Shown one piece after another: positions 7,280 to 56,939 of a DNA stretch of 64,000 nt. The stretch is from a virus. The stretch's first letter is position 1, and each line of letters begins with the position of its first letter. The notes under the pieces were generated by a model, which saw nothing but the letters and a program-made list of their open reading frames with translations, ran no database searches and was not told where the DNA came from. The DNA is taken from positions 1-64,000 of the IMG/VR virus record IMGVR_UViG_3300034095_001343, one strand, 5' to 3'. The translations under genes and the position numbers were made by a program.

Positions 7280-7409
7280 AGTCAGGTGGCGGAATTGGTA
7301 GACGCTATGAATAAAGGTTAATAGTAAAGATAACGCGGAGTAACCTTGAAAAACCCGGTGAAAGTCCTGCTCATAAGTTATTATACAGGTTCGAATCCTG
7401 TCCTGACTA
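7280..7409 (+). tRNA. tRNA-like element 1, Leu-like arms, non-standard anticodon region
   Basis: The acceptor arm AGTCAGG pairs perfectly with CCTGACT. The D-arm GCG/CGC with loop GAATTGGTAGA is the Leu-tRNA type, and the T-arm ACAGG-TTCGAAT-CCTGT is perfect. At about 130 nt it is far longer than a class II tRNA. In place of the anticodon arm, TATGA/TCATA closes about 60 nt holding the 7-bp stem AAGGTTA/TAACCTT. No plain 7-base anticodon loop is visible, so it is either a tRNA with an unusual insert or a tRNA mimic. No CCA is encoded. Confidence 0.55.
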
Positions 7410-7931: not shown

Positions 7932-8138
7932 GAATGAGAAAACTCTCTTACAGAGGACGGATTAGCACCGTTGAAAGAAACTTTGGCTCTTGGGAGTAAT
8001 TACCCAAATGAGATACATGCCCCAAAGTGAACTGTGATGGATCCTGCTCTGTAGTGCACTACAACAGGTAGACAGTAAACTATGTCTAATAAAAACTAGA
8101 AGCATGGTAGAACATGCAAGAGAGTTTCTTATTCTTTT
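7932..8138 (+). ncRNA. Multi-branched structured RNA candidate
   Basis: No ORF is supported in this 200-base stretch. The ends pair over about 17 bp (7932-7949 with 8118-8134), followed by TTTT. Inside are ACGG/CCGT (7957-7970), ACTTTGG/CCAAAGT around TTGGG/CCCAA (7980-8027), a hairpin on TGTAGTGCACTACA closed by CCTG/CAGG (8043-8067), TAGACA/TGTCTA (8069-8088) and GCATG/CATGC (8102-8116). Together they form a closed multi-way junction. It starts five bases after tRNA-like element 2. It does not match RNase P, tmRNA or 6S RNA signatures that I know. Confidence 0.55.
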
Positions 8139-8189: not shown

Positions 8190-8768
8190 ATGTTTTATAA
8201 ATATAACAAACAAAAACTATTATTTGAACCTGTTTATAGGGAAATAATAGTATTCGGAAGTATTTGCTTTATTATTGTAGTATCTACACTATTAAGTGGT
8301 ATTGTAGTAGGAAAAAATATTACAAAAGCGCAAATTATTGAGTTAGAAGGTGGTATTCATATAATAAGAGATAATGATCAGGTCTTCTCTAAAAACGATT
8401 TAATAGATATGATTAAAGAGTTAGATGTTAAATACCCTTATATAGTATTAGCACAATCTATTCTTGAAACCGGTCATTGGACATCTATAGTGTTTAAAGA
8501 GAATCATAATTTATTTGGAATGAAAATGGCCAATAAAAGAATTAAAACTGCTAAAGGAACACAACTTAATCATGCTTATTATAATAACTGGCAAGAAAGT
8601 GTCTATGATTATGCTTTTTATCAATGCAGATATTTAAGCAAAATTAATTCTGAACAAGAATATTATGATGCGTTAGATGCAACTTATGCAGAAGCATTTA
8701 AGTATTCTGAGAAGTTAAAAGAAATTATTAAAAATGAAAAATTAAAAGAAATTTTTTATCATGAATAA
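8190..8768 (+). CDS. Membrane-anchored glucosaminidase-type peptidoglycan hydrolase, 192 aa
   Basis: This is a likely phage lysin that cuts the glycan strand of peptidoglycan (beta-N-acetylglucosaminidase, FlgJ C-terminal/Glucosaminidase family). Residues about 18-38 form a single membrane segment or signal anchor. The catalytic domain from about 80 onward shows LAQSILETGHWTS with the general-acid Glu, then HNLFGMK, and later NNWQESVYDYAFY, all typical of the family. The next gene, a helicase, overlaps by eight bases. It probably acts in lysis together with the holin and spanin candidates on the other strand. Confidence 0.8.
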   Translation: MFYKYNKQKLLFEPVYREIIVFGSICFIIVVSTLLSGIVVGKNITKAQIIELEGGIHIIRDNDQVFSKNDLIDMIKELDVKYPYIVLAQSILETGHWTSIVFKENHNLFGMKMANKRIKTAKGTQLNHAYYNNWQESVYDYAFYQCRYLSKINSEQEYYDALDATYAEAFKYSEKLKEIIKNEKLKEIFYHE

Positions 8769-9849
8769 CAAAGACTCTATTCAAGAACAAGCCTTAAAAG
8801 AGATAGAAAAACACGAAAGATGCGGTGTAGGTATTTCAATGGGTGTTGGTAAGACAAGAATTGCCATAAAACATTTAATAAAAAACTTTCATCCTTTTGT
8901 AAAAGCTTTAGTTGTAATACCTAAATTATCTATTAAGGATTCTTGGGATGATGAACTAAAAAAAATGAATCTAGAAAAATTAAGCAGTCATATAGTATTT
9001 ACAACATATCTTTCTATAAACAAGCAGGATCCAACTGATTATGATATTGTCTATTTAGATGAATGTCATAGTCTTTTGGATACTCATGAAATGTTTTTAA
9101 AAAAGTTTAAAGGAAAAATTGTTGGTTTAACCGGTACACCACCCATTAGAAAGGAAAGTGAAAAATATAGGATGGTTTATAAATATTGTCCTATGGTATT
9201 TAATTTTTCTGTAGATCAAGCCACTGATCAAAAAATTCTAAATAATTATAAAATCTTTATTCATAAAATTGAACTAAGTAAATTACAAACATTAAAGAAG
9301 AAAAAGAAAAATGGTGGAGTGTGGTATACTTCTGAAAGAAATGATTATGAATATTTAACAAGACAATTAGCAGAAGCCACTACACCAAAACAAATGCAGT
9401 TTTTTTCTATTTTAAGAATGAGAGCAATGATGGATTATAACACTAAAGAAATGTATGTTAAAAGCATTTTAAAACAAGTAAATGATAAGTGTATTATATT
9501 TGCTAATACTCAAGAACAAGCTGATAGAATTTGTAAATATAGTTTTCATTCTAATAATATTAAGTCTGATGAGAATTTGCAATTATTTAAAGATTCTAGA
9601 ATACAAAAATTATCATGTGTTATGCAATTAAATGAAGGTGTCACTATTCCCAATTTAAAAGTTGGAATTATTATGCATTCATATGGTAATGAACGTAAAA
9701 GCAATCAGAGGATAGGTAGACTCCTCAGACTTAATCCTACTGAAACTGCATATATACACATTCTTTGCTATAAAGATACCATTGATGAAAAATGGATAAA
9801 CAATGCACTGGAAGGATTAGATCAAAGTAAAATTATAAATGTAAATTAA
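8761..9849 (+). CDS. SF2 (SNF2/DEAD-like) helicase, 362 aa
   Basis: This is an ATP-dependent DNA translocase or helicase. Motifs in order are Walker A GISMGVGKTRIA (about 24-35), motif II DECH (about 101-104), motif III-like GLTGTPP, and motif VI IGRLLRLNP near residue 320. At 362 residues it is a compact two-domain SF2 enzyme. A single-copy SNF2-like helicase is part of the crAss-like replication module. The translocation partner and substrate cannot be told from sequence. Confidence 0.85.
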   Translation: MNNKDSIQEQALKEIEKHERCGVGISMGVGKTRIAIKHLIKNFHPFVKALVVIPKLSIKDSWDDELKKMNLEKLSSHIVFTTYLSINKQDPTDYDIVYLDECHSLLDTHEMFLKKFKGKIVGLTGTPPIRKESEKYRMVYKYCPMVFNFSVDQATDQKILNNYKIFIHKIELSKLQTLKKKKKNGGVWYTSERNDYEYLTRQLAEATTPKQMQFFSILRMRAMMDYNTKEMYVKSILKQVNDKCIIFANTQEQADRICKYSFHSNNIKSDENLQLFKDSRIQKLSCVMQLNEGVTIPNLKVGIIMHSYGNERKSNQRIGRLLRLNPTETAYIHILCYKDTIDEKWINNALEGLDQSKIINVN

Positions 9850-9853
9850 GATT

Positions 9854-10105
9854 ATGAACAAATTAAAACTATCAGCATCCAAAGAGATTTGGGATGAAAC
9901 CAACCCACTTCCATGCGTAAGAATAGCGTTTTTATCAGACTTCACGGATGGCAATTTATTGATTGATTGGGAGAAGTGGATTGACTATTGTCAAACATAT
10001 TATAAAGAAGAATGGGTACAAAAGCCAAATACGGTAATAGATTATGAAGGCACTTTGGAAGGTGCGAACAAATGGATATTACTTAATTTTATAAATTGGC
10101 TATGA
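9854..10105 (+). CDS. Hypothetical protein in cassette-like insert, 83 aa
   Basis: Not recognised. The protein is rich in Trp and acidic residues (DWEKWIDYCQTYYKEEWVQKP) and ends NFINWL. Its codons are GC-richer than the helicase before it, consistent with recent acquisition. It is followed by an attC-like fold (10146-10200), so it would be the cargo of cassette 1. No left-hand repeat matching that attC was found upstream, so the left cassette boundary is uncertain. Confidence 0.55.
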   Translation: MNKLKLSASKEIWDETNPLPCVRIAFLSDFTDGNLLIDWEKWIDYCQTYYKEEWVQKPNTVIDYEGTLEGANKWILLNFINWL

Positions 10106-10145
10106 TATGAATAGGAAACTGTTGCCTGATGTGAGCGGTAATTTT

Positions 10146-10200
10146 GCACCTAACGTTTTGCAGCTTGATAGGGCTATTACGCAAAACCCTTGTTATGTGC
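10146..10200 (+). repeat. attC-like recombination site 1
   Basis: GCACCTAAC (10146-10154) and GTTATGTGC (10192-10200) are inverted with one mismatch. Just inside lie GTTTTGC (10155-10161) and GCAAAAC (10181-10187), perfect complements. The outer boxes fit the integron R'' (RYYYAAC, here ACCTAAC) and R' (GTTRRRY, here GTTATGT with one misfit) patterns, and CCTT is an extra spacer on one side. Recombination would fall between G10192 and T10193. Confidence 0.55.
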
Positions 10201-10216
10201 CGTTAAATTTAGAAAT

Positions 10217-10429
10217 ATGATAGGAGTACAAATAAAAAATGGCTTTATTGATTTTGCCAAAACAGACTTTGAATGTCCAATTTGTAAAAAGCAATACAAT
10301 GATAGGGATGATAAATACCTTGAACGATGCCAAAGAAACAAGCAAGGAATAACCAAAATAAAATGCGAATGTGGTAAGCCGTTTTTTATGACTTACAATT
10401 ATATGGGTGATGCTGTGTCGTTTGTATAA
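10217..10429 (+). CDS. Zinc-ribbon-like protein in cassette 2, 70 aa
   Basis: The ATG at 10217 is chosen over an upstream one inside the cassette end. The protein shows CPIC (about 21-24) and, after some 25 residues, CECG, which could make a zinc ribbon; an extra Cys lies between. It resembles small cassette-encoded proteins of unknown function. It is flanked by TTATGTGCC on the left and GGCACATAA on the right, the paired ends expected of one excisable cassette. Confidence 0.55.
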   Translation: MIGVQIKNGFIDFAKTDFECPICKKQYNDRDDKYLERCQRNKQGITKIKCECGKPFFMTYNYMGDAVSFV

Positions 10430-10430
10430 T

Positions 10431-10526
10431 GGCACATAACGGTTGAGGCTAAGAGCAGTTGCCTTAAATACTGCTTAAAATTTGCACTATGCTTAATGGC
10501 AATTGCTTTTAGCCTTTGTTATCGGT
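10431..10526 (+). repeat. attC-like recombination site 2
   Basis: GGCACATAAC (10431-10440) ends the cassette that began with TTATGTGCC. GTTATCGG (10518-10525) opens the next. Between them GGCTAAGAGCAGTTGCC (10447-10463) pairs with GGCAATTGCTTTTAGCC (10498-10514) with a few bulges or mismatches, giving a long hairpin with about 34 bases in the loop. Length and layout match integron attC sites. Confidence 0.55.
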
Positions 10527-10549
10527 TCGGTGCGGTAATTGAAACGAAA

Positions 10550-10681
10550 ATGACAGATAAAGAAATTTTAGAAATCGACTTTTATGACTTATGCGGATGC
10601 GCTGCATTATGGATGACTGATGAAGATAAGATTAAGTATTACAGGGAATGTATGAACGCAGCTTCAAGCACTGACCGATAA
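10550..10681 (+). CDS. Small acidic protein in cassette 3, 43 aa
   Basis: The start is the ATG at 10550 (MTDKEILEIDFYDLCGCAAL); the frame upstream of it runs through the attC-like site. The protein has CGC and is acidic. Its stop codon lies inside the right-hand box ACCGATAAC. The cassette begins TTATCGGT and ends ACCGATAA, again a matched inverted pair. Function is unknown. Confidence 0.45.
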   Translation: MTDKEILEIDFYDLCGCAALWMTDEDKIKYYRECMNAASSTDR

Positions 10682-10735
10682 CATAGATATTGGCGAACAT
10701 TTTACACGCATAACTGTGTCCAAGTAAAATTAGAA
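10674..10735 (+). repeat. Incomplete attC-like site 3 and insert edge
   Basis: The R''-like box ACCGATAAC (10674-10682) is present, but no clear inner arms or R' box follow. The GC-richer sequence continues to about 10730 and then returns to AT-rich phage sequence. This is best read as a decayed or truncated attC at the right edge of the cassette insert. Confidence 0.35.
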
Positions 10736-10762: not shown

Positions 10763-10969
10763 ATGAGTAAAACAAAACAATTATTTATGGAAATTAGAGA
10801 AAAAGAAGGAGATCAACATATGTTGGAAAATTCTTCTGTATTTAATTCAAACATATTATGTCCTAACTGTATGAAAAGGAATCTCCTGGAATACAGTCAT
10901 ATTGATCTATACTGTGAAGGATGTGGTCAAGAATTTATTAAAGTTGGAAAAGCAGTGAGATTTAAATAA
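10763..10969 (+). CDS. Small zinc-ribbon protein, 68 aa
   Basis: Two CxxC pairs, CPNC (about 33-36) and CEGC (about 50-53), form a zinc-ribbon pattern (CPNCMKRNLLEY..., LYCEGCGQEF). It is probably a small metal-binding protein that contacts nucleic acid or another protein. It lies just after the cassette-like insert, but its AT-rich composition is that of the phage. It converges with the minus-strand gene at 10983. Confidence 0.6.
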   Translation: MSKTKQLFMEIREKEGDQHMLENSSVFNSNILCPNCMKRNLLEYSHIDLYCEGCGQEFIKVGKAVRFK

Positions 10970-10982
10970 ATTAAATCAAAAA

Positions 10983-11405
10983 TTATAATCTTGTTTTTAT
11001 ATTAGGTACTATAATAATTTGTACATCAAAAGTACGGGCATGCATAACATAATTTCCCCATACTTCAATATTTGCAATTTTTGTTTTTGCTATATAACCA
11101 AGACTTGTAGGAATTTGATAACCAATTGTTTTATCATAACTTCTTAACCAGAATGGTGAGATAAAGAATCCCTTATATTCAATAATATTTTGCCAATAAA
11201 AATTATTCCAAGCCGTGTTTAACGGATGATATATTAAACCAACTCTTGGACCAAAATTAAAATCTCCTTCTGTATAGATCTGTTGATAACTTATTTGAAT
11301 AGCAGCACCTTTATTATTTACAGTAAGTGCTGGCAAAAGTCTCTCTTCTTGTGCTTGAGATAATACAAAAGTAAAAACGAGCATTATAGTTAAGTAAATC
11401 TTCAT
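10983..11405 (-). CDS. Exported beta-barrel-like protein, 140 aa
   Basis: A signal peptide (MKIYLTIMLVFTFVLSQAQ) precedes alternating aromatic/polar stretches (NFGPRVGLIYHPLNTAW, YKGFFISPFWLRSY) typical of outer-membrane beta strands. With 120 mature residues it is small for a barrel, so a partial or minimal barrel is likely. It is one of only two minus-strand genes in the plus-strand replication block, which suggests separate control. Roles such as surface blocking of other phages are conjecture. Confidence 0.55.
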   Translation of the reverse strand: MKIYLTIMLVFTFVLSQAQEERLLPALTVNNKGAAIQISYQQIYTEGDFNFGPRVGLIYHPLNTAWNNFYWQNIIEYKGFFISPFWLRSYDKTIGYQIPTSLGYIAKTKIANIEVWGNYVMHARTFDVQIIIVPNIKTRL

Positions 11406-16779: not shown

Positions 16780-18621
16780 TGGCACAATCAATTCTAGTAA
16801 TCGCTGAGTCCGGCTCAGGTAAATCAACATCCATTAGGAACTTAGATCCTAATGAAACATTAATCATTAACATTGCAAATAAACCTTTGCCTTTTAAAGG
16901 TTGGAAAAGTAAGTATGCACTTTTAGACAAAGAAAATCCTAAAGGAAATCTTTTAAATGTATCTTCTGGTCCTGGTGTATTAAAAGCAATGATGCATGTT
17001 AATGAGAAAATGCCACACATCAAGAACTTAGTTATTGATGATAAAAATTGCTAGTCATCATTAAATTACGTGAATCTGGGAAAGCCTTGTAGAAGGTAAC
17101 CCTGTTCCAAGTGCCATAGAAATATGGTAAAGGATCAACGACTAGTACATACAGTCTTACCAAGTGAAGTTGGAGACAATGAAGTACCAAGAGTGCGTAA
17201 CATAAAGGGAGGTCAACCTCATTAACTTTTATGAAGAGATAGTCTGGACTATAGATATAACTAAAATTAACATTTAAACTTGCAAATCGTCTGAAAAATT
17301 TGTATATTGCAGTATGGCTTACATATATACATTAGAACACCCTGTAAACTCAGAAATAAGATACATAGGTGTAACAATGAGAACGTTGCAATCAAGATTA
17401 TATGATCATTGCTCTTCATATTACCTTAAAAAAGTAAATAATAGAAGGGCAACGTGGATAAAATCATTGAAAAAGCAAAACTTAAAACCAATAATTAAAT
17501 TATTAGATGAAGTACCTGATGACAAAAGGTATGAAACAGAAATGTTTTACATAGAACAATTTAAACAATGGGGATTTGATTTAGTTAATTCTACTAAAGG
17601 TGGATCTGGAGGTACAACATATGTGCGTCCAAAATTTTACCATAAGGAAGAAACAAAGTTAAAAATAAGTAAGGCAAACACAAGATCTCATTCAACAGAA
17701 TGGATTGCTAATGCGGCAAAAGGAGCTTTTAAACCAATTACACAATATACTTTAGATGGTATAATACTAAAAAATTGGGATTCAACAACAACTGCAGCAC
17801 TAGCACTAGGTGATATAAATTATAAAAAAAATATATCATCTTGTTTAAGAGGTTTGCGTAATCATGCATATGGATTTAAATGGGAATATAAAACTATAGA
17901 TCTACAGGATAAAGAGCCTGTAGGGTAACAATATACGTGGCAGTATATGTCAAGCTTTGAGTATTTTGACAAAGCAAATGAGAAAGGGTGGAATTAATCA
18001 TGCCCTTGTAAAATCGCTTAAATTGCGGGGACATCCTAAAGTTCATAATACCAACTTAATATAGTAATATAATTAAGGGCATTGCTAATCACAATGATAT
18101 GGTAAAAAGTTATGAGATAATAATGGACAATCCGCAGCCAAGCTTCCTTGAAAAAGGATGAAGGTTCAGAGACTAAAGAGGCGAATTTTGTTTATAATTA
18201 AATGAAATATGATATAGTCCGGCTATATATGAAAGTATATGGAATCACCGATGATAAATTTACCTCTATTGCTGCAAACCTTGCAGCCGTTGCTAAAGCA
18301 CCAAAAGATCTCAGAGATAATCTCTATGTGTTTTTCTTAACACATTCAGAAGATAGCACTGATATTAATGGTAAACGTAAAATTAAAGCTAAAACTGTTG
18401 GAAAAATGATCGATAATTCCCTTACCTTAGAGGGCTTATTCTCAATTGTTTTATTTGGTAAAGTAATTAAAGAAGAAAATGGTAAAATGAACTATATGTT
18501 TGCAACACAAACAGATGGTGAGACAACCTGTAAATCCCCAATGGGTATGTTTGATGAAGAGATGATCCCGAATGATCTTCAATATGTCAAAGAATGTATC
18601 CAGAAGTATGAAAATGAATAA
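16779..18621 (+). CDS. AAA/RecA-like ATPase, split by two group I introns (228 aa when joined)
   Basis: Exons are 16779-17042, 17938-17989 and 18251-18621. Their sum is 687 nt and restores one frame. The product has Walker A AESGSGKST (residues 9-17), Walker B LVIDD (84-88), then WQYMSSFEYFDKANEKGYDK across both junctions, DNLYVFFLTHSED with the sensor-1-like region, and a Gly/Met-rich end. It matches the P-loop NTPases found in crAss-like replication modules, thought to act in DNA repair or recombination. Intron A falls directly after Walker B. Exon 2 is only 52 nt long and encodes 17 residues plus one base. Confidence 0.8.
17280..17310 (+). promoter_or_regulatory. Bacteroidota-type promoter for intron endonuclease
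   Basis: TTG (17280-17282), a 20-base spacer, then TATATTGC (17303-17310) fits the Bacteroidota primary sigma pattern TTG-N19..21-TAnnTTTG with a near match at -7. The start codon at 17314 follows so closely that the message would be nearly leaderless. It lets the homing gene be expressed independently of the host gene. Confidence 0.5.
17314..17928 (+). CDS. GIY-YIG homing endonuclease, 204 aa
   Basis: This is an intron-encoded endonuclease that cuts intron-less alleles to spread the intron. The GIY-YIG domain is at the start: YIYTLEHPVNSEIRYIGVT (about 3-21), in which YIY and YIG are the eponymous motifs, then Arg and Glu of the catalytic core (YETEMFYIEQF near 71-81). The C-terminal half (KLKISKANTRSHSTEWIANA, then YTLDGIILKNWDSTTTAA) has NUMOD-type DNA-binding modules. 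It ends nine bases before the intron boundary. Confidence 0.9.
   Translation: MAYIYTLEHPVNSEIRYIGVTMRTLQSRLYDHCSSYYLKKVNNRRATWIKSLKKQNLKPIIKLLDEVPDDKRYETEMFYIEQFKQWGFDLVNSTKGGSGGTTYVRPKFYHKEETKLKISKANTRSHSTEWIANAAKGAFKPITQYTLDGIILKNWDSTTTAALALGDINYKKNISSCLRGLRNHAYGFKWEYKTIDLQDKEPVG
17990..18250 (+). mobile_element. Group I intron B (261 nt), no ORF
   Basis: The 5' exon ends AAGGGT. Guide GCCCTT (18002-18007) pairs with it, with a G-U at the site. TCAT (17998-18001) pairs with the 3' exon start ATGA (P10). The core shows TTAAATTGCGGGGACATCC and AATCCGCAGCC, P7 strands GACTA and TAGTC, and a P9 hairpin CTATATAT-GAAA-GTATATGG ending at 18242. The intron ends CACCG with G18250. Splicing gives Tyr at the junction (T|AT). 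Confidence 0.85.
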
Positions 18622-47492: not shown

Positions 47493-47541
47493 AAAGAGCT
47501 GTGCAATTCTGTAAGGATATACTGCACAGCTCTTTTTTATA
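47493..47541 (+). terminator. Strong hairpin terminator
   Basis: AAAGAGCTGTGCA (47493-47505) pairs perfectly with TGCACAGCTCTTT (47523-47535) and is followed by T. The nrdB start at 47561 comes 20 bases later; an upstream in-frame start would run through the hairpin and is rejected. Confidence 0.85.
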
Positions 47542-47560
47542 TAGAAACAATAAAACAAAT

Positions 47561-49522
47561 ATGAAAGCAAACATTTTTGAACCAAGATTAAACATTTTAC
47601 CTTATGAATACCCTCAGTTATTAGCATATAAAGATGCTATTCGTCACTCTTACTGGATTGATACTGAGTATAATTTTACTACAGATATTGATGACTTTAG
47701 AGTAAAAGTTACAGATAGTGAAAGAGAAGTTATTAAAAGAACAATGTTAGCCATTGCGCAGATTGAAGTTAATGTAAAAACTTTCTGGGCTGATATGTAT
47801 AAGCGTATGCCTATCACAGAAATAGGAGATGTAGGTATGACCTTTGCTGAATGTCATGGTGAAGGTACAGAAATACTAACCTTAAAGGGTTGGATAGACT
47901 TTAAGAATATTACTAACAATACAGAAGTTATTCAGTATGATATAGAAACTGATACAATGACATCTGTTTTACCAACTAATATAATAAATAAACCTTACAA
48001 AGGGAAAATGCATAGGATTAAAAACCAAACATACAATGCATTGCTAACTCCTAATCATAACATTATATATAGGACAAGAAGTGGTAATGTTATGAAAAAG
48101 ACCATTAAAGAAATCACTAAATTTAATAGTGATATGAAATTACCTTTTTCAGGAAAACTTCTCCATGATGGAATACAAGAGTTAACACCTATTGAAAGAT
48201 TAAGAATTGCTATACAAGCTGATGGATCTTCTAGATTTTGGAATAAGAATGGTGAGAAGATAAGAAGAGGATTAGAAACAAATAGTCATACTTATGAAAT
48301 TTCAGTTAAAAAAGAGAGAAAGAAACTTAGACTAAAAAATCTTATAATAGAATCAGGATTAACATACAGAGAATTTGAAGTATCAAGACCTGAATATGTA
48401 AAGTATGAAATAGATTTTCCTACTGATTATGATTTAAAACAGTTTAATTGGGTTGATTTATCAGATAAATCTCAGAATTGGTGTAACCATTTTATTGAAG
48501 AATTGATTGAGTGGGATGGAACAAGATTGGAAGGTAAGGGTAATGCTAAGAATTGTCTTATGAAATATTCTACTACTAATAAATTATGTGCTGATAAGGT
48601 TCAAGCTGTAGGTATTTTAGCAGGTTACAGAACTAATATAAATACTAAAACAGATAATAGAAAAGATTCATATAAAGATATTTATACTGTAAGTTTTGTA
48701 AATACAGAAAATTATTCATCAATAACATATACACCTACTATTGAGGATTATGATGGTAATATATACTGTGTAACTGTTCCAACGGGATGCATTGTAACTA
48801 GATATAATAATAAAGTTTTAATTTCAGGAAACTCAGAAGTTCGTCACAAAGATGCATATGCAAGACTGCTTAGAATTCTAGGTTTAGAAGATGAGTTTAA
48901 AACAGTAATTGAAATACCAGCTATTGAAGGTAGAATCAAATACCTAAAGAAGTACTTAGACGGTTCCCGCAGTAAGGATAATAAGATGTATACTAAATCT
49001 GTGCTATTATTTTCTCTATTCATTGAGCACGTTAGTTTGTTTAGTCAGTTCTTAATTATGATGTCTTTCAATAAGGAAAAGAATCTTTTTAAAGGTATCT
49101 CAAATGTTGTTGAGGCTACCAGCAAAGAAGAGGATATTCACGGTAATTTTGGTGTTGAGATTATTAATATCATTAAGTCTGAAAATCCTGAATGGTTTGA
49201 TACAGATTTTGAAGAGTTAATTTACTCCGCCTGTTTGAAAGCTTATGCCGCTGAATGCGGTATATTAGACTGGATTTTTGAAAAGGGTGAGTTAGAGTTT
49301 CTAAATAAGGAAACTATTCAAGAATTTATTAAGAATAGATTTAATAATTCTCTTAGAAAGATTAACATGCAGCCCTTATTTGAAATTAATACCAATTCGT
49401 TAGAATCAACAAAATGGTTTGAGGTAGAGATTACCGCAACTAAAGAGGGTGACTTCTTTTATAAAAAACAAATAGACTATAACAAAAAATCTAAAGCAAT
49501 TACAGAAGATGACTTATTTTAA
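47561..49522 (+). CDS. nrdB: Ribonucleotide reductase small subunit NrdB with intein
   Basis: The class I RNR radical subunit makes the tyrosyl radical used by NrdA to reduce ribonucleotides to dNTP precursors. The precursor is 653 residues and the mature protein about 326. After intein removal the metal site reads FAESEVRHKDAYARL, with Glu and His ligands (EVRH) and the radical Tyr; a second ExxH (EEDIHGNFG) lies further on. The ATG at 47561 (MKANIFEPRLN) is chosen because the earlier frame start overlaps the terminator. nrdA follows four bases after the stop. Confidence 0.9.
   Translation: MKANIFEPRLNILPYEYPQLLAYKDAIRHSYWIDTEYNFTTDIDDFRVKVTDSEREVIKRTMLAIAQIEVNVKTFWADMYKRMPITEIGDVGMTFAECHGEGTEILTLKGWIDFKNITNNTEVIQYDIETDTMTSVLPTNIINKPYKGKMHRIKNQTYNALLTPNHNIIYRTRSGNVMKKTIKEITKFNSDMKLPFSGKLLHDGIQELTPIERLRIAIQADGSSRFWNKNGEKIRRGLETNSHTYEISVKKERKKLRLKNLIIESGLTYREFEVSRPEYVKYEIDFPTDYDLKQFNWVDLSDKSQNWCNHFIEELIEWDGTRLEGKGNAKNCLMKYSTTNKLCADKVQAVGILAGYRTNINTKTDNRKDSYKDIYTVSFVNTENYSSITYTPTIEDYDGNIYCVTVPTGCIVTRYNNKVLISGNSEVRHKDAYARLLRILGLEDEFKTVIEIPAIEGRIKYLKKYLDGSRSKDNKMYTKSVLLFSLFIEHVSLFSQFLIMMSFNKEKNLFKGISNVVEATSKEEDIHGNFGVEIINIIKSENPEWFDTDFEELIYSACLKAYAAECGILDWIFEKGELEFLNKETIQEFIKNRFNNSLRKINMQPLFEINTNSLESTKWFEVEITATKEGDFFYKKQIDYNKKSKAITEDDLF
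47852..48832 (+). mobile_element. Intein in NrdB (327 aa) with LAGLIDADG endonuclease
   Basis: The insert begins CHGEGTEILTLKGW with Cys1 and the block-A form CxxxGT, and ends NNKVLISGN before Ser+1 of the extein. Inside, TYNALLTPNHNI is block B (TxxH-like) and IQADGSSRFW plus LIEWDGTRLEG are the two endonuclease motifs. The usual penultimate His is Gly. It lies between Ala-Glu and Ser-Glu, two residues from a metal ligand. Confidence 0.9.
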
Positions 49523-51209: not shown

Positions 51210-54200
51210 TTATTTAATATAGAAGTTGGTCAGATTTAAGAATTCATTGTATTTCTTAATTGAATATAATATAGGCACTACATCTGCCCAGTTTTTATAA
51301 AGTTTTATTTCTCTCTTTCTAGTTCCTCTTTGATAAACATAATCTGAATCTAAGTAGAAATCTTCTTTACCTTCAACCAGATAAGCAAGCGGTGTCATTA
51401 CACTTAAAGATAATGCTTCACCAAACTCACCCAAGGTTCTTGTTGATGCAATAGGAGATTTAAACATTTGATAGATTTGCTGAGCACCTATAGGAGTAAA
51501 TAGAATAAGTTCCTTATAAGTTCTATCTGCTTGATATCTCATAAAGTTTTCCATTCTCTTTTCAAACTCAGTATCATCATCATCATCTGAGAACATTGCT
51601 GCAAGAATACCATTAAGAGCAACTGTCACCATGATGATTCCAATTTCTCCTAAAGTTCTATAGGCACCAAACAGTTTGTCTCTGGCTCTTTGATCTCTCT
51701 GTGAACCATCTCCAGTATAACCATATTGCTCCATAAAGTTCTCACTATGCTTACCAAATTCAAGTTGAAACGTAGCAAGCTGTTTTGTGCTATAAGCTAA
51801 AAATTTCCAGAAGGCTCTATATCTACCTTCCATCCATCCTAAGTTTTCATCAAAGTATTCTCTACGAAATCTTGCTTTAATTGCTGGAGCAACCCACTTG
51901 TGAAATTGTGCAGCAAGTCTACCAACAGCATATGATTGAATAACCATTCTATCATCCTTAGCATAGTTACCGTGAATTTGTTTATTCACTTCACGGATCT
52001 TATTTCTAAGTTGATATCTAAAGTCATTAGTGTATTTGACTTCTTTAATTACTTTAGGCTTTCCTTCATCATCAACATTCTTTCTATCAAGGGTTACAAT
52101 TGTATCATAACCATCTTTTAGTTTTGCTTCTTTTGTTTCTGAATCAAATTCAAAAGCATCATACATAGAGATGATATCTCCAGTTGCTTTATTCATGATC
52201 ATGGTATCTATAAGGATAGCCATACCAATCTTAGTCTGAACATTGTATTCAGCCATATCTTGAAGTACATAACCAAAGTCAGCAGCTTTTCTAAACCAAG
52301 ACTTGCCAATAGGCTCAGGACCAAATTGACTTTCACGTATGTCAGATTTAGCATCCATCATTCTAAATAAATCAACTAAAGCTTCATACTTACTTGAAGG
52401 CTCTTCAGGATCATAATCTGATTTATTAAAAGGTTTCTTTGCAACAGCTCCCAATCTTACTACAAGATCTGGCAAAGCTCTTTTGTTAAATTCAAACTCA
52501 GCTCTAGCATATGAAGAACCAGCAAAGAATCTTTGACCCAGTGCTTCAATAGTATTGTTAATTCTACCTAAAGCATAGTTATTAAAGTTACCAAATGGGT
52601 TAAATGCCACATAAGATAAAGATGAATATTCCATCAAACCGTCAGTAACTTTTTCTAAGAAGCCTTTAGTGATTCTATCATTGTCATAGTATACCATTGA
52701 CATCCACTTCTTAGCTCTCTTAACTACGTTACTTTCAGCTCCACCTTTTTTACCTTTTGGTATGAACTTACCTTTTACCCACTTTCCTAATGTTACTCCA
52801 GGATCTGCAGGTTGGTAACTACGTTGTTCAAGAACTTTAATGAAAGCTTTAAAGGTGTCTTCAACTGTAGACATCACTTCATAATGTTCAGCCATTGAAC
52901 TGAATCTCATGAGGGCCGTACCCATATCTTTATTAATCTCACCTTTAGAAGGTCTTGCTTGAATAGTTGCAAGTCTTCCTTTTAAAATAGGCATTTGATT
53001 ATCATAGGCATCTCTAGTTACAAAACCTTTCTTTCTGTTATTTTCTAATGCAGTAATCTCTGCATTAATTGCAGCAAGCTCTTCATCTGTTCTTGCTCTT
53101 CCTGTATAGAAGATAGGAAGCTGATCAATAAGATTACCTTCTTCATCTAATACAATACCTCTCTGTTCTGCAGTTTCTGATACAAGATTGTTAACACTTC
53201 TTGTAGCCTTAGACCAAAGCTTACCTACAATATTAGGTTTAGCTTTTATATCTTGGAATAATTTACCTTTTACTACGGGCACATTACCTAACATTTGAGA
53301 TCTATATCCCATAGGTAATTTGCCAAGTAATTGATTTTCATAGTAATTTACAAATGCTAAATAAAACTCTTTTTGAGTTTGACCTAATGCATCTGAAGGA
53401 TTCATAATTTTTTCATACTTTTCACTTACCATTCTCTCACCAGTACGCAGATTATAATCATTTGCAATACGGTTTTGTGGTTTAACAGCATGGAACACAG
53501 ACTCTCTTACAATTGCTCCAGTAAAATTACCATTCTGATCTTTTTTAGCATATGTATATTCAACTTCATTAAAATACTTAGCTAAGTAAACTTGATAAGC
53601 TCTGTCAGATACACCAGCCTTTCTTCTCCATACAGGTTTGCCATTAACCGGAACATAGTATTGGAACTTAGCTCTTTCAGTTTTAAACTCATCAGTGTAT
53701 TTATGGAAGTCCCCATCCATAAGTTTATCATCTAGACCCACTCTTTCAGCAGCCCAGAATGCAGCATACTCAGACTTAGCCTTAGCAAGTTTAATGTTAA
53801 ACTCTAAATCTTCTTTTTTAGCAGTTGCTGCTTCACTTACATCTCTATATTCTAAGGCATTACCATTTTCATCATAGAGTTTATCTCTAAGCTCCTGTTG
53901 CTTTTTATAGTATTGTCTACCTAATCTTTGAACATATCTTCCGTTAAATTCACCATCATCGTCAAACTCAAGCATGAAGTCATACATTTCTTGAGTATTC
54001 TTATTAGGAGATAGTTTCTGAAGTCTTGATGCTAGACCTGCAATAGTTCTGTTTCTTGTTTCTACATTATCCAAAAGCTCTTGCTTTTTAGTCTTGTAGA
54101 TTTTATCCATTACTGCAAGAATAGTATCTCTTGAAGTTGCTAGATCACCAGTACCCAGTTCCATATAATCTATATCACGGGCATGCTTCATTAAATCATT

Positions 54201-56939
54201 TAAAACATCATCGGTTAAGTCATCTCTTGTTGACCAATTCTTAATCTGTGCTTTTACATAATTTGTAATAGCTTCATTGATAAGACCTTCTTGCTTTGAG
54301 TTACTAACACCCAAATTATTCAATTGAGTTTGTAACTGTAAGATTAAAGATTTCTGTGTAGCATTGATACCTTCAAGATCTTTTACAGAATATAATCCTT
54401 CAAAAGTTTTAATGAATCTATTGAAGTTAAGAACGTATGTAATGTATTCTGATTTGTCAAAGTTATCTACATTGTTTACATAGTCTGTAAAGTTTTTAAT
54501 CTGCTTGAAAGCATCTCTTAATAACTCTGTAAATAGTGCAGCACGTGCCTTAGGACCTTCAGCCATTGCTAAGCTAATGGCAGATAGAGCATTAAGAATA
54601 TTTTCTTCAGTTTGCTCTCTAGTTCTATCAATATAGATAGCACTTTTAATCTGCTCCATTGCTTTAAGCTTTGTTGTCAAAGCCATTCTATAGTTTTCTA
54701 AAGCTTGTGTAATAACTTCATACTCAGTATATGGATCAGCAAAGTCTGTATCTTCTGGCATCTTTTCAGCATCTGTTAATTCTGAATCCCAGTTAACAGC
54801 ATTGTCTAATGCATCATCAATGTTTTTCTCTAAATCTTCTAATGAAATTGAGTCAACATTTTTTGGAACAAGAAGATCAACATATAAACTATTTTGACTT
54901 GCAGGATGAGCCACCCATTCATCAGATCTAAACTCACCAGTGAATTCTTGCTGAGCATCTTTACCTTTGATACCAACTTGAATGTGGAAAGTAGAAGCAC
55001 CCATTTCACTCATGTCTACTTCATAACCCATATTTTCAAGCATCCTTCTATACATGTTTACTTGAATACCCTGTTGAGCTCTTGTAGAAAGACTTTCAAT
55101 CCCTGCCTTTTTAAGATCACTATTTTCTCCTAGTTTATATTCTTGGTCATACTTAAGTTTACCTTGAAGTCCTACTTTAGTTTTAGCTTGCTCACTTAAC
55201 ACCATATCTCTTACAGAGTTCTTGCTTGTCTTAAGATCAACAATTCTAAGTTTACCATCTGGCAAAACAACAAGAATGTCAATTGATCCGGCAGTCTTTG
55301 ACTTCTGGTCATAAACAACAACTTGAGGAACGGCAACACCGCCACCTCTAGTAATCTCTCTAAGATTTTCTTGTAATTGTAAATAAGCTTTCTCAGCTTG
55401 TTCTCTATTAAGAACTTTCATTTGAGAAAAGACTTCATCTAATTGTTTATCTGAAGTTAATCCTTGCAATAACTTATCAAAGTCATTACCCAGATCAATG
55501 TTCAGTTTCTTATTAAACATATCTTCTTCAGAAAGCTTTCCTTTAATTCTTTCTGTAGTAGAACTGAAAGTCTCAGTTGTATCTAATAAGTTATAGTATA
55601 CATGATTCTCTTCATTAAGAACAACAATTGGTCCTTCAAATCCGGCAGCCATTGAACCAACTTCTTCTTTTGTAGTTTGTGCTTGATGGAATAGTCTATT
55701 GATTATTTCAGCTTGAATTGCATTTGATTGTCTTGTAGCATAATCTACAGTAGACTGAAGTTCAGGAGTTAAAGAAAATCTAATCTTAGCATCTGCTCTA
55801 GCCGCTGCGTTAAACTGAATACCAGAAGTATTTAACAACTTAGCAATATCAGATAAAGTAGTTGTAGGTTTAATGTCTTGAAGATTAATTCTCACAACTT
55901 CAGAAGGTGTTTGAGATGGTTGAACAACTTCAGAACTTCTTAAAGAAGATATATTAATACCTGTAATATATTTATGAAGATTGTTTATAATATCAGCAAA
56001 CCAATCCAAAAACTCTTTTACTCTTTCTTTAAAGGTCTTGGTTGGATTTTCTTCATATTCTTTTTTGAAGTGTCTTGTCAAAGCTTGTGTAACAAGTTCA
56101 AGATCTCTGTGTCTTTGATTAAAACCACGTTTCTCACTATAAGCATCTTCAATTTGCTGACTTAATACTGGAAACATAGTCTTTGCTTCTGATAGTAATG
56201 AATCAAACAAAGCTTTATTATCTACAAACAAAGCATCTGTAAATGGGTGAAGTATCTCTTCAATAGCTGTCTCATCTGTAACACGTCCTCTAATTAAAAC
56301 AACTTTATTTGATAGAGGATTGAAATAAGAATTTACTTTTTCAAAAGGTACATTAGCTTTTTGAAATTCTGAAAGACTATTATAATAAGCTTGTGCCTCA
56401 GCAACTGAAACTAACTCTACTTCAACATTAGGAAACATTCTCATTAAATGAGTAACAACGTGTCTACTTCTAGTTTGATCCCAACCTCTTGTTGATTGCA
56501 TCATATCTTTAGAAGTAAATACATTCTCATCTACAGTAATTTTAACTAAATTTGCAGTAGGTTGAAAATTAACAGCCTTCTCAGGAATGTTATTAATATC
56601 AAGATATCTTTTTACTTTGTTCAGATTACTTTGCAAAACTTGAGCATCATAAGCTCTAGTTTGTCTGTTAGAGTTATTTATATAATATAAATTACCAATC
56701 TTGATAATTAAGTTCTTCCTAGATAAATTACCCAGAATAGCTTCTGCAAAATTTCTTTGCTGAATGTTAAAAGCAATTTTCTTATCCTTTAAGAATTGTT
56801 TTGCTTGTCCAACTGTAGGAAAAGCTTCACTATTATTTACATTTTGCCAAGACGTAATTATTCCATCAACCTGTATATTGCTACTGAAAGCACCTAATAA
56901 GTTTTTATATTCTTGGGTATTTCTATTAAAACATGCCAT
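51210..56939 (-). CDS. Giant virion protein with PD-(D/E)XK-like domain, 1909 aa
   Basis: Likely partner of the virion RNA polymerase, co-injected with it in crAss-like phages. The N-terminal 350 residues include TAIEEILHPFTDALFVDNKA, a possible decayed metalloprotease-like segment. Around residue 550, GSIDILVVLPDGKLRIVDLK, then TSKNS has the G-x-D ... D-x-K pattern of PD-(D/E)XK nucleases. Then come long charged helical regions and, near residue 1770, a hydrophobic segment followed by SDDDDD. The start at 56939 is three bases from the upstream stop. Confidence 0.65.
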   Translation of the reverse strand: MACFNRNTQEYKNLLGAFSSNIQVDGIITSWQNVNNSEAFPTVGQAKQFLKDKKIAFNIQQRNFAEAILGNLSRKNLIIKIGNLYYINNSNRQTRAYDAQVLQSNLNKVKRYLDINNIPEKAVNFQPTANLVKITVDENVFTSKDMMQSTRGWDQTRSRHVVTHLMRMFPNVEVELVSVAEAQAYYNSLSEFQKANVPFEKVNSYFNPLSNKVVLIRGRVTDETAIEEILHPFTDALFVDNKALFDSLLSEAKTMFPVLSQQIEDAYSEKRGFNQRHRDLELVTQALTRHFKKEYEENPTKTFKERVKEFLDWFADIINNLHKYITGINISSLRSSEVVQPSQTPSEVVRINLQDIKPTTTLSDIAKLLNTSGIQFNAAARADAKIRFSLTPELQSTVDYATRQSNAIQAEIINRLFHQAQTTKEEVGSMAAGFEGPIVVLNEENHVYYNLLDTTETFSSTTERIKGKLSEEDMFNKKLNIDLGNDFDKLLQGLTSDKQLDEVFSQMKVLNREQAEKAYLQLQENLREITRGGGVAVPQVVVYDQKSKTAGSIDILVVLPDGKLRIVDLKTSKNSVRDMVLSEQAKTKVGLQGKLKYDQEYKLGENSDLKKAGIESLSTRAQQGIQVNMYRRMLENMGYEVDMSEMGASTFHIQVGIKGKDAQQEFTGEFRSDEWVAHPASQNSLYVDLLVPKNVDSISLEDLEKNIDDALDNAVNWDSELTDAEKMPEDTDFADPYTEYEVITQALENYRMALTTKLKAMEQIKSAIYIDRTREQTEENILNALSAISLAMAEGPKARAALFTELLRDAFKQIKNFTDYVNNVDNFDKSEYITYVLNFNRFIKTFEGLYSVKDLEGINATQKSLILQLQTQLNNLGVSNSKQEGLINEAITNYVKAQIKNWSTRDDLTDDVLNDLMKHARDIDYMELGTGDLATSRDTILAVMDKIYKTKKQELLDNVETRNRTIAGLASRLQKLSPNKNTQEMYDFMLEFDDDGEFNGRYVQRLGRQYYKKQQELRDKLYDENGNALEYRDVSEAATAKKEDLEFNIKLAKAKSEYAAFWAAERVGLDDKLMDGDFHKYTDEFKTERAKFQYYVPVNGKPVWRRKAGVSDRAYQVYLAKYFNEVEYTYAKKDQNGNFTGAIVRESVFHAVKPQNRIANDYNLRTGERMVSEKYEKIMNPSDALGQTQKEFYLAFVNYYENQLLGKLPMGYRSQMLGNVPVVKGKLFQDIKAKPNIVGKLWSKATRSVNNLVSETAEQRGIVLDEEGNLIDQLPIFYTGRARTDEELAAINAEITALENNRKKGFVTRDAYDNQMPILKGRLATIQARPSKGEINKDMGTALMRFSSMAEHYEVMSTVEDTFKAFIKVLEQRSYQPADPGVTLGKWVKGKFIPKGKKGGAESNVVKRAKKWMSMVYYDNDRITKGFLEKVTDGLMEYSSLSYVAFNPFGNFNNYALGRINNTIEALGQRFFAGSSYARAEFEFNKRALPDLVVRLGAVAKKPFNKSDYDPEEPSSKYEALVDLFRMMDAKSDIRESQFGPEPIGKSWFRKAADFGYVLQDMAEYNVQTKIGMAILIDTMIMNKATGDIISMYDAFEFDSETKEAKLKDGYDTIVTLDRKNVDDEGKPKVIKEVKYTNDFRYQLRNKIREVNKQIHGNYAKDDRMVIQSYAVGRLAAQFHKWVAPAIKARFRREYFDENLGWMEGRYRAFWKFLAYSTKQLATFQLEFGKHSENFMEQYGYTGDGSQRDQRARDKLFGAYRTLGEIGIIMVTVALNGILAAMFSDDDDDTEFEKRMENFMRYQADRTYKELILFTPIGAQQIYQMFKSPIASTRTLGEFGEALSLSVMTPLAYLVEGKEDFYLDSDYVYQRGTRKREIKLYKNWADVVPILYSIKKYNEFLNLTNFYIK

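Follow-up and report, generated by a model that had tools for sequence, protein, structure and literature searches.

Clusters of attC sites without an integron integrase have been described in virulent phages, and their recombination by IntI1 has been demonstrated (Qi et al. 2023, PMC9892861). One such cluster, in the virulent Polaribacter phage P12002L, was tested experimentally with IntI1 (PMC9892861), and 21 phages with integron components were listed in 2023. Here we analysed a 64-kb stretch of DNA (the window), part of a 114,929-base virus record, in which a block of ~890 bases lies between a helicase gene and a gene for a Zn-ribbon-like protein. We conclude that this block is very probably a fragment from an array of integron cassettes (a CALIN), inserted between backbone genes of an integrase-less crAss-like phage. 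The original prediction had taken an integrase-less attC array carried by a phage to be a new route for cassette spread; this part does not stand, because such clusters and their recombination by IntI1 had already been reported (Qi et al. 2023, PMC9892861). Our literature search, which was incomplete in coverage, found no report of integron cassettes in crAss-like phages; the locus places them in the best-known phage group of Bacteroidota.

Judged from its genes, the carrier is a crAss-like phage. A 1909-aa protein (51210-56939) matches 63 phage records; among the matches listed all are crAss-like, mostly annotated as an RNA-polymerase subunit, and this ORF qualifies as a crAss-type RNA polymerase subunit. 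The genes for DNA polymerase, helicase, UDG and ribonucleotide reductase are similar to the set found in Cellulophaga phage phi14:2 (Steigviridae). Together, the crAss-like matches and the phi14:2-like gene set indicate that the host is most likely a member of the Bacteroidota. No integrase had been seen in the window, and the same is true of the full 114,929-base record, which contains neither an integron integrase (TIGR02249) nor a tyrosine recombinase (PF00589) and thus not the intI of a complete integron.

Several other features were observed elsewhere in the window. An Rfam tRNA match extends over 130 bases (7280-7409, 38.1 bits) with no ARAGORN call, perhaps reflecting a tRNA gene with an insertion. 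Beyond it are a gene with an MGS-like domain (PF02142; 7425-7799), a methylglyoxal-synthase-like gene in a phage, and a freshwater-1 RNA (8033-8094, 78.4 bits). At 17314-18241 a GIY-YIG endonuclease gene adjoins a group I intron match (17955-18241), and the gene for the ribonucleotide reductase small subunit (47501-49522) is split by an apparent intein, with a weak match to PF14890.

Examination of related loci indicates how the block relates to the phage backbone (Table 1). The SF2 helicase gene on its left has relatives in 28 other viral loci. In the nearest of these (L002-L005, with helicases 82-85% identical), one different small gene occupies the position of the block, and in L007-L009 the gap between the helicase and the next gene is just 29 bases; we therefore consider the block an insertion. 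The Zn-ribbon-like gene on its right lies one gene past the helicase in L002-L005 and in L027. As predicted, the block is richer in GC than its surroundings, at 35.2% compared with 28.1 +/- 3.2% between 2 and 30 kb; 2.3% of equal-length stretches in that region are at least as GC-rich. The block is identical in a second record, IMGVR_UViG_3300042562_001667, which agrees at 11,117 of 11,117 bases, making an assembly chimera unlikely.

Table 1. Features of the block and its flanks, with positions in the window, and recombinase genes of other viral records, with positions in the loci named.
Feature	Position	Strand	Remarks
SF2 helicase gene, phage backbone, left flank	8761-9849	+	phrog_16 DNA helicase, E 6e-31
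ORF0, 83 aa	9854-10105	+	GC 35% (ORF and downstream spacer) vs 27% and 24% in flanks
attC1	10146-10200	+	R'' GCACCTAAC, L'' GTTTTGC (extra A), L' GCAAAAC, R' GTTATGTGC
Cassette A, complete, 326 bp (from the TT in R' of attC1 to the G in R' of attC2)	10193-10518	+	self-closure; hairpins at both ends
ORF A, 70 aa; small protein with CxxC/CxC, zinc-ribbon-like	10217-10429	+	relatives in three other viral records
attC2	10432-10526	+	R'' GCACATAAC, stem GGCTAA.AGCA.TTGCC, R' GTTATCGGT
Cassette B, right end lost after R'' ACCGATAAC (10674-10682)	10519-10682	+	self-closure, 9 nt; no hairpin beyond
ORF B, 43 aa	10550-10681	+	stop codon within R'' box (from sequence)
Residual sequence, truncated cassette B to phage	10683-10735		no fold (z +0.4); no R1 match of note
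68-aa Zn-ribbon-like backbone gene, right flank	10763-10969	+	homologues 60-63% identical in L002-L005, L027
XerA-like tyrosine recombinase, viral record with attC2-type site	L187 4615-5448
XerA-like tyrosine recombinase, viral record with attC2-type site	L202 1453-2283
XerA-like tyrosine recombinase, viral record with attC2-type site	L184 10550-11467

The original prediction had each of two small ORFs begin and end with complementary boxes, and these boxes are indeed where it placed them and are exact complements. In cassette A the boxes are TTATGTGCC (10193-10201) and GGCACATAA (10431-10439); with the flanking G/C they extend to GTTATGTGCC and GGCACATAAC, complementary over 10 nt, such that TTATGTGCC stands at the start of the cassette and GGCACATAAC just before its attC. 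In cassette B the boxes are TTATCGGT (10519-10526) and ACCGATAA (10674-10681), and the closure formed by GTTATCGGT and ACCGATAAC is exact over 9 nt counted from the G. As a background we used the 5810 GTT...AAC pairs that lie 120-400 nt apart within the window, where complementarity extends to 9 nt in only 6 and to 10 nt in 2; plain counting of complement pairs across the whole window is unselective (22 pairs vs 10-19 in shuffles). The self-closure of A and B is the arrangement expected of former circles.

The ORFs themselves are small and have few relatives. The start of ORF0 has no complementary box, and self-closure is not seen for ORF0; it presumably stems from a first cassette that has lost its left end, and in viral contigs and phages we found no relatives of it beyond the same phage. 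ORF A ends at 10427-10429 and attC2 begins at 10432, the order of small ORF and then attC that characterizes a cassette. Its Pfam zinc-binding matches are all sub-threshold, its predicted structure has a mean pLDDT of 58, too low for interpretation, and searches of phages, plasmids and genome contigs returned no relatives. ORF B has no family match.

The two sites that join these cassettes share the architecture of attC while differing in their stems: the stem of attC1 (GTTTTGC/GCAAAAC) is short and contains one extra base, and that of attC2 is long with two mismatched positions. In addition to these imperfect inner stems, both have bottom strands that, as ssDNA, fold more stably than shuffles (z -2.8 for 10138-10206 around attC1; z -3.7 for 10428-10530 around attC2), as is characteristic of attC. 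Outer boxes with the G|TT crossover are found at 10146-10154/10192-10200 in attC1 and at 10432-10440/10518-10526 in attC2; the R' boxes GTTATGT and GTTATCG are one or more letters away from the classical GTTRRRY. The sites start 286 nt from one another, and the locus is a CALIN in the sense of IntegronFinder, with at least two close attC sites and no integron integrase. The palindromes predicted at the joints are present in two cases, but no hairpin follows the third R'' (10674-10682), where the fold has a z of +0.4; the array here comprises two attC sites, not three.

To score these sites we built our own attC covariance model, R1. Its seed was a recurrent attC arm from a long array in viral contig L035, which we searched for exactly in genomes and viral contigs; this 17-nt motif occurs in 68 genomic stretches, mostly from Bacteroidota, and in 68 viral stretches. 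R1 was made from 26 aligned short sites from these stretches and from L035 and L038, with the window's phage excluded; the training set comes partly from viral contigs, some of which are possibly host DNA. A covariance-model check had been proposed along with the original prediction, and in the 64-kb window R1 ranks the two sites first and second. The match to attC2 is clear (44.5 bits, E 1.8e-7). That to attC1 is marginal, at 19.0 bits (with an E of 0.09 for the 64-kb window and of 1.8e-3 for a 1.3-kb stretch), compared with a background maximum of ~17-22 bits; because this score is no clearer than the background maximum, attC1 rests mainly on its fold and position. By itself attC1 is marginal, and it is carried by its fold, its place and its closure with attC2. 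In the 28 helicase-related loci used as a negative control, the best other R1 scores are 21.9 and 17.1 bits, nothing convincing, and in eight named crAss-like or helicase-related phage genomes no score exceeds 15.7 bits. As a positive control, Polaribacter phage P12002L gives five R1 sites (E 1e-8 to 2e-5), none of them individually equated with the published attC2. A 24-nt sequence that scores 17.1 bits recurs in several relatives (L003 2458-2481, L013 3250-3273 and others) and is too short for an attC.

The attC2 module is present in other viral contigs. Its 24-nt arm occurs in 18 viral stretches, namely the same phage and 17 other contigs, a few of which have flanks in common; across these contigs the stem is near-constant and is bounded at R'' and R', and the variable R'' letters differ. 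The core of attC1 was found in no other viral contig except the same phage. Recurrence of the ORFs in other arrays, which the original prediction had proposed as support, was seen for ORF A but not for ORF0. The relatives of ORF A are 74-80% identical: that in L038 (79% over 42 aa) is directly followed by an attC whose R'' box is again GCACATAAC but whose stem differs, that in L035 (79%) is at the edge of the long array, and that in L036 has no attC beside it. The L035 contig (G003, IMGVR_UViG_3300031566_000035) is identified as a phage by genes for terminase and portal, and its R1 matches span 17.7-34.9 kb of 57 kb. Inspected by eye, this ~17 kb attC cassette array (L178-L180) includes a cytosine-methyltransferase-like cassette.

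Over 67 viral loci R1 gives 149 matches at E up to 0.01, and this attC class looks widespread. These matches, together with the 68 viral stretches that contain the 17-nt motif, suggest that Bacteroidota phages carry attC arrays much more often than the 21 phages listed in 2023 would imply. A terminase match (phrog_2) is present in 15 of 32 viral records searched, the window's own included, and in 6 of 15 records with the attC2 arm; viral records that lack any hallmark gene may represent host DNA. One 93-kb record (G088, locus L195) has 13 R1 matches at E <=0.01 within 14.6 kb and no terminase or PF00589 match.

Could the hairpins be ordinary repeats of the REP or MITE kind, or terminators, that merely resemble attC? 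Lone R1-type sites are scattered through Bacteroidota genomes, mostly without an integron integrase, as such repeats might be. However, the R boxes vary by cassette and match the start of their own cassette, and the same property is seen at motif sites elsewhere: an exact 10-nt closure lies upstream of 8 of 58 cellular and 10 of 55 viral sites, whereas downstream it is found at none of the cellular sites and one viral site (~0.2 by chance). Furthermore, the same stem is combined with different boxes in other phages, and R1 finds the sites of the P12002L control. A known REP/MITE family, which the original prediction had itself named as the competing outcome, does not fit boxes that are cassette-specific and close on their own cassette start, and we consider this explanation very improbable. 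It is also conceivable that the phage acquired its cassettes singly, each through insertion by a host IntI into a secondary site, and not as one fragment. The insert lies exactly between two genes and cassette A is complete, its crossover points being clean, as single insertions would produce; but the TT... start is missing from the left cassette and the attC from the right one, and thus neither outer border is a G|TT junction. These borders make single insertions unlikely.

We also considered which recombinase acts on this attC type. Integron integrases are common in the phylum to which a Cyclobacterium MAG belongs, with 105 of 395 sampled genomes having one, compared with 3 of 40 genomes that contain this attC type's motif, a share below that of the phylum sample; near 16 strong integrase genes we found no R1-type attC. 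A PF00589 recombinase is present in 5 of the 15 attC2-arm records. On contigs that contain the attC2 stem, three recombinases have NF040815 ('tyrosine recombinase/integron integrase') as their best match; one scores just above its cut-off and two below, and all fall well short of the TIGR02249 cut-off for IntI. These XerA-like enzymes of some attC2-arm phages are candidates for serving this attC type. Both the rarity of R1-type sites in genomes with IntI and the better fit to NF040815 would be expected if an enzyme distinct from IntI had brought in and moved the array, such as the XerA-like tyrosine recombinases of some phages that share this attC type. Against this, PF00589 recombinases are absent from all 32 viral records of the first set, IntI1 recombined the attC of a Bacteroidota phage in a published assay (PMC9892861), and a 9.8-kb contig of G013 (L224) contains an integron integrase and an R1-type site together. 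We regard entry and movement by such an enzyme as distinctly unlikely.

The preferred reading is that of an inserted array fragment, with two attC sites, the complete cassette A and two incomplete cassettes (that of ORF0 on the left and B on the right). The central claim of the original prediction, integron-like cassettes with attC-like sites inside a phage genome, thus stands, supported by the folds, the R1 ranks, the closure and the recurring attC2 stem. Because neither outer end has a proper attC or cassette start, we propose that the block most likely entered as a fragment through ordinary recombination without site specificity, its source being an array of a Bacteroidota host or of another phage; alternatively, it may have arrived whole and its ends eroded later. 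The cassette genes and flanking phage genes are all on the + strand, which suggests that they are probably transcribed together and that a cassette promoter would be unneeded. Cassette A keeps all that is needed for excision or rearrangement, that is, two attC sites that fold as ssDNA and intact G|TT crossover points. Its excision, and with it any present-day mobility, would presumably occur only if the cell provides an attC-acting recombinase in trans. As both ends of the fragment are damaged, the current mobility of the first and last cassettes is doubtful.

If attC arrays are indeed this common in Bacteroidota phages, integrase-less lytic phages could carry cassettes between bacteria and between phages, and the identity of the recombinase that serves this attC type becomes directly testable. 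We also raise, tentatively and with more doubt than confidence, the idea that attC cassettes serve integrase-less Bacteroidota phages as a common currency in gene exchange: a pool of their own with a shared attC type, swapped between unrelated phages via host recombinases, of which phages would be a main reservoir and not occasional carriers. The wide occurrence of attC arrays, if confirmed on contigs of assured phage origin, would be of more interest than the single case.

Comparison with known systems places the locus among them while setting it apart in several ways. Like the CALIN of P12002L, it is an integrase-less attC cluster with small cassettes in a Bacteroidota phage, and its attC type is found by the same R1. 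Unlike that cluster, it is carried by a crAss-like phage of ~115 kb, has only two attC sites, both borders damaged and no methyltransferase gene, and is known here from sequence alone. With the G003 array it shares ORF A, the attC type and the lack of an integrase, although that array has many complete cassettes over its ~17.7-34.9 kb. With the integron arrays of bacterial chromosomes it shares the attC architecture, the G|TT crossover, an ORF that ends at R'' and self-closure; in contrast to these arrays, it has no known attI or Pc promoter and is borne by a phage in which no intI was found.
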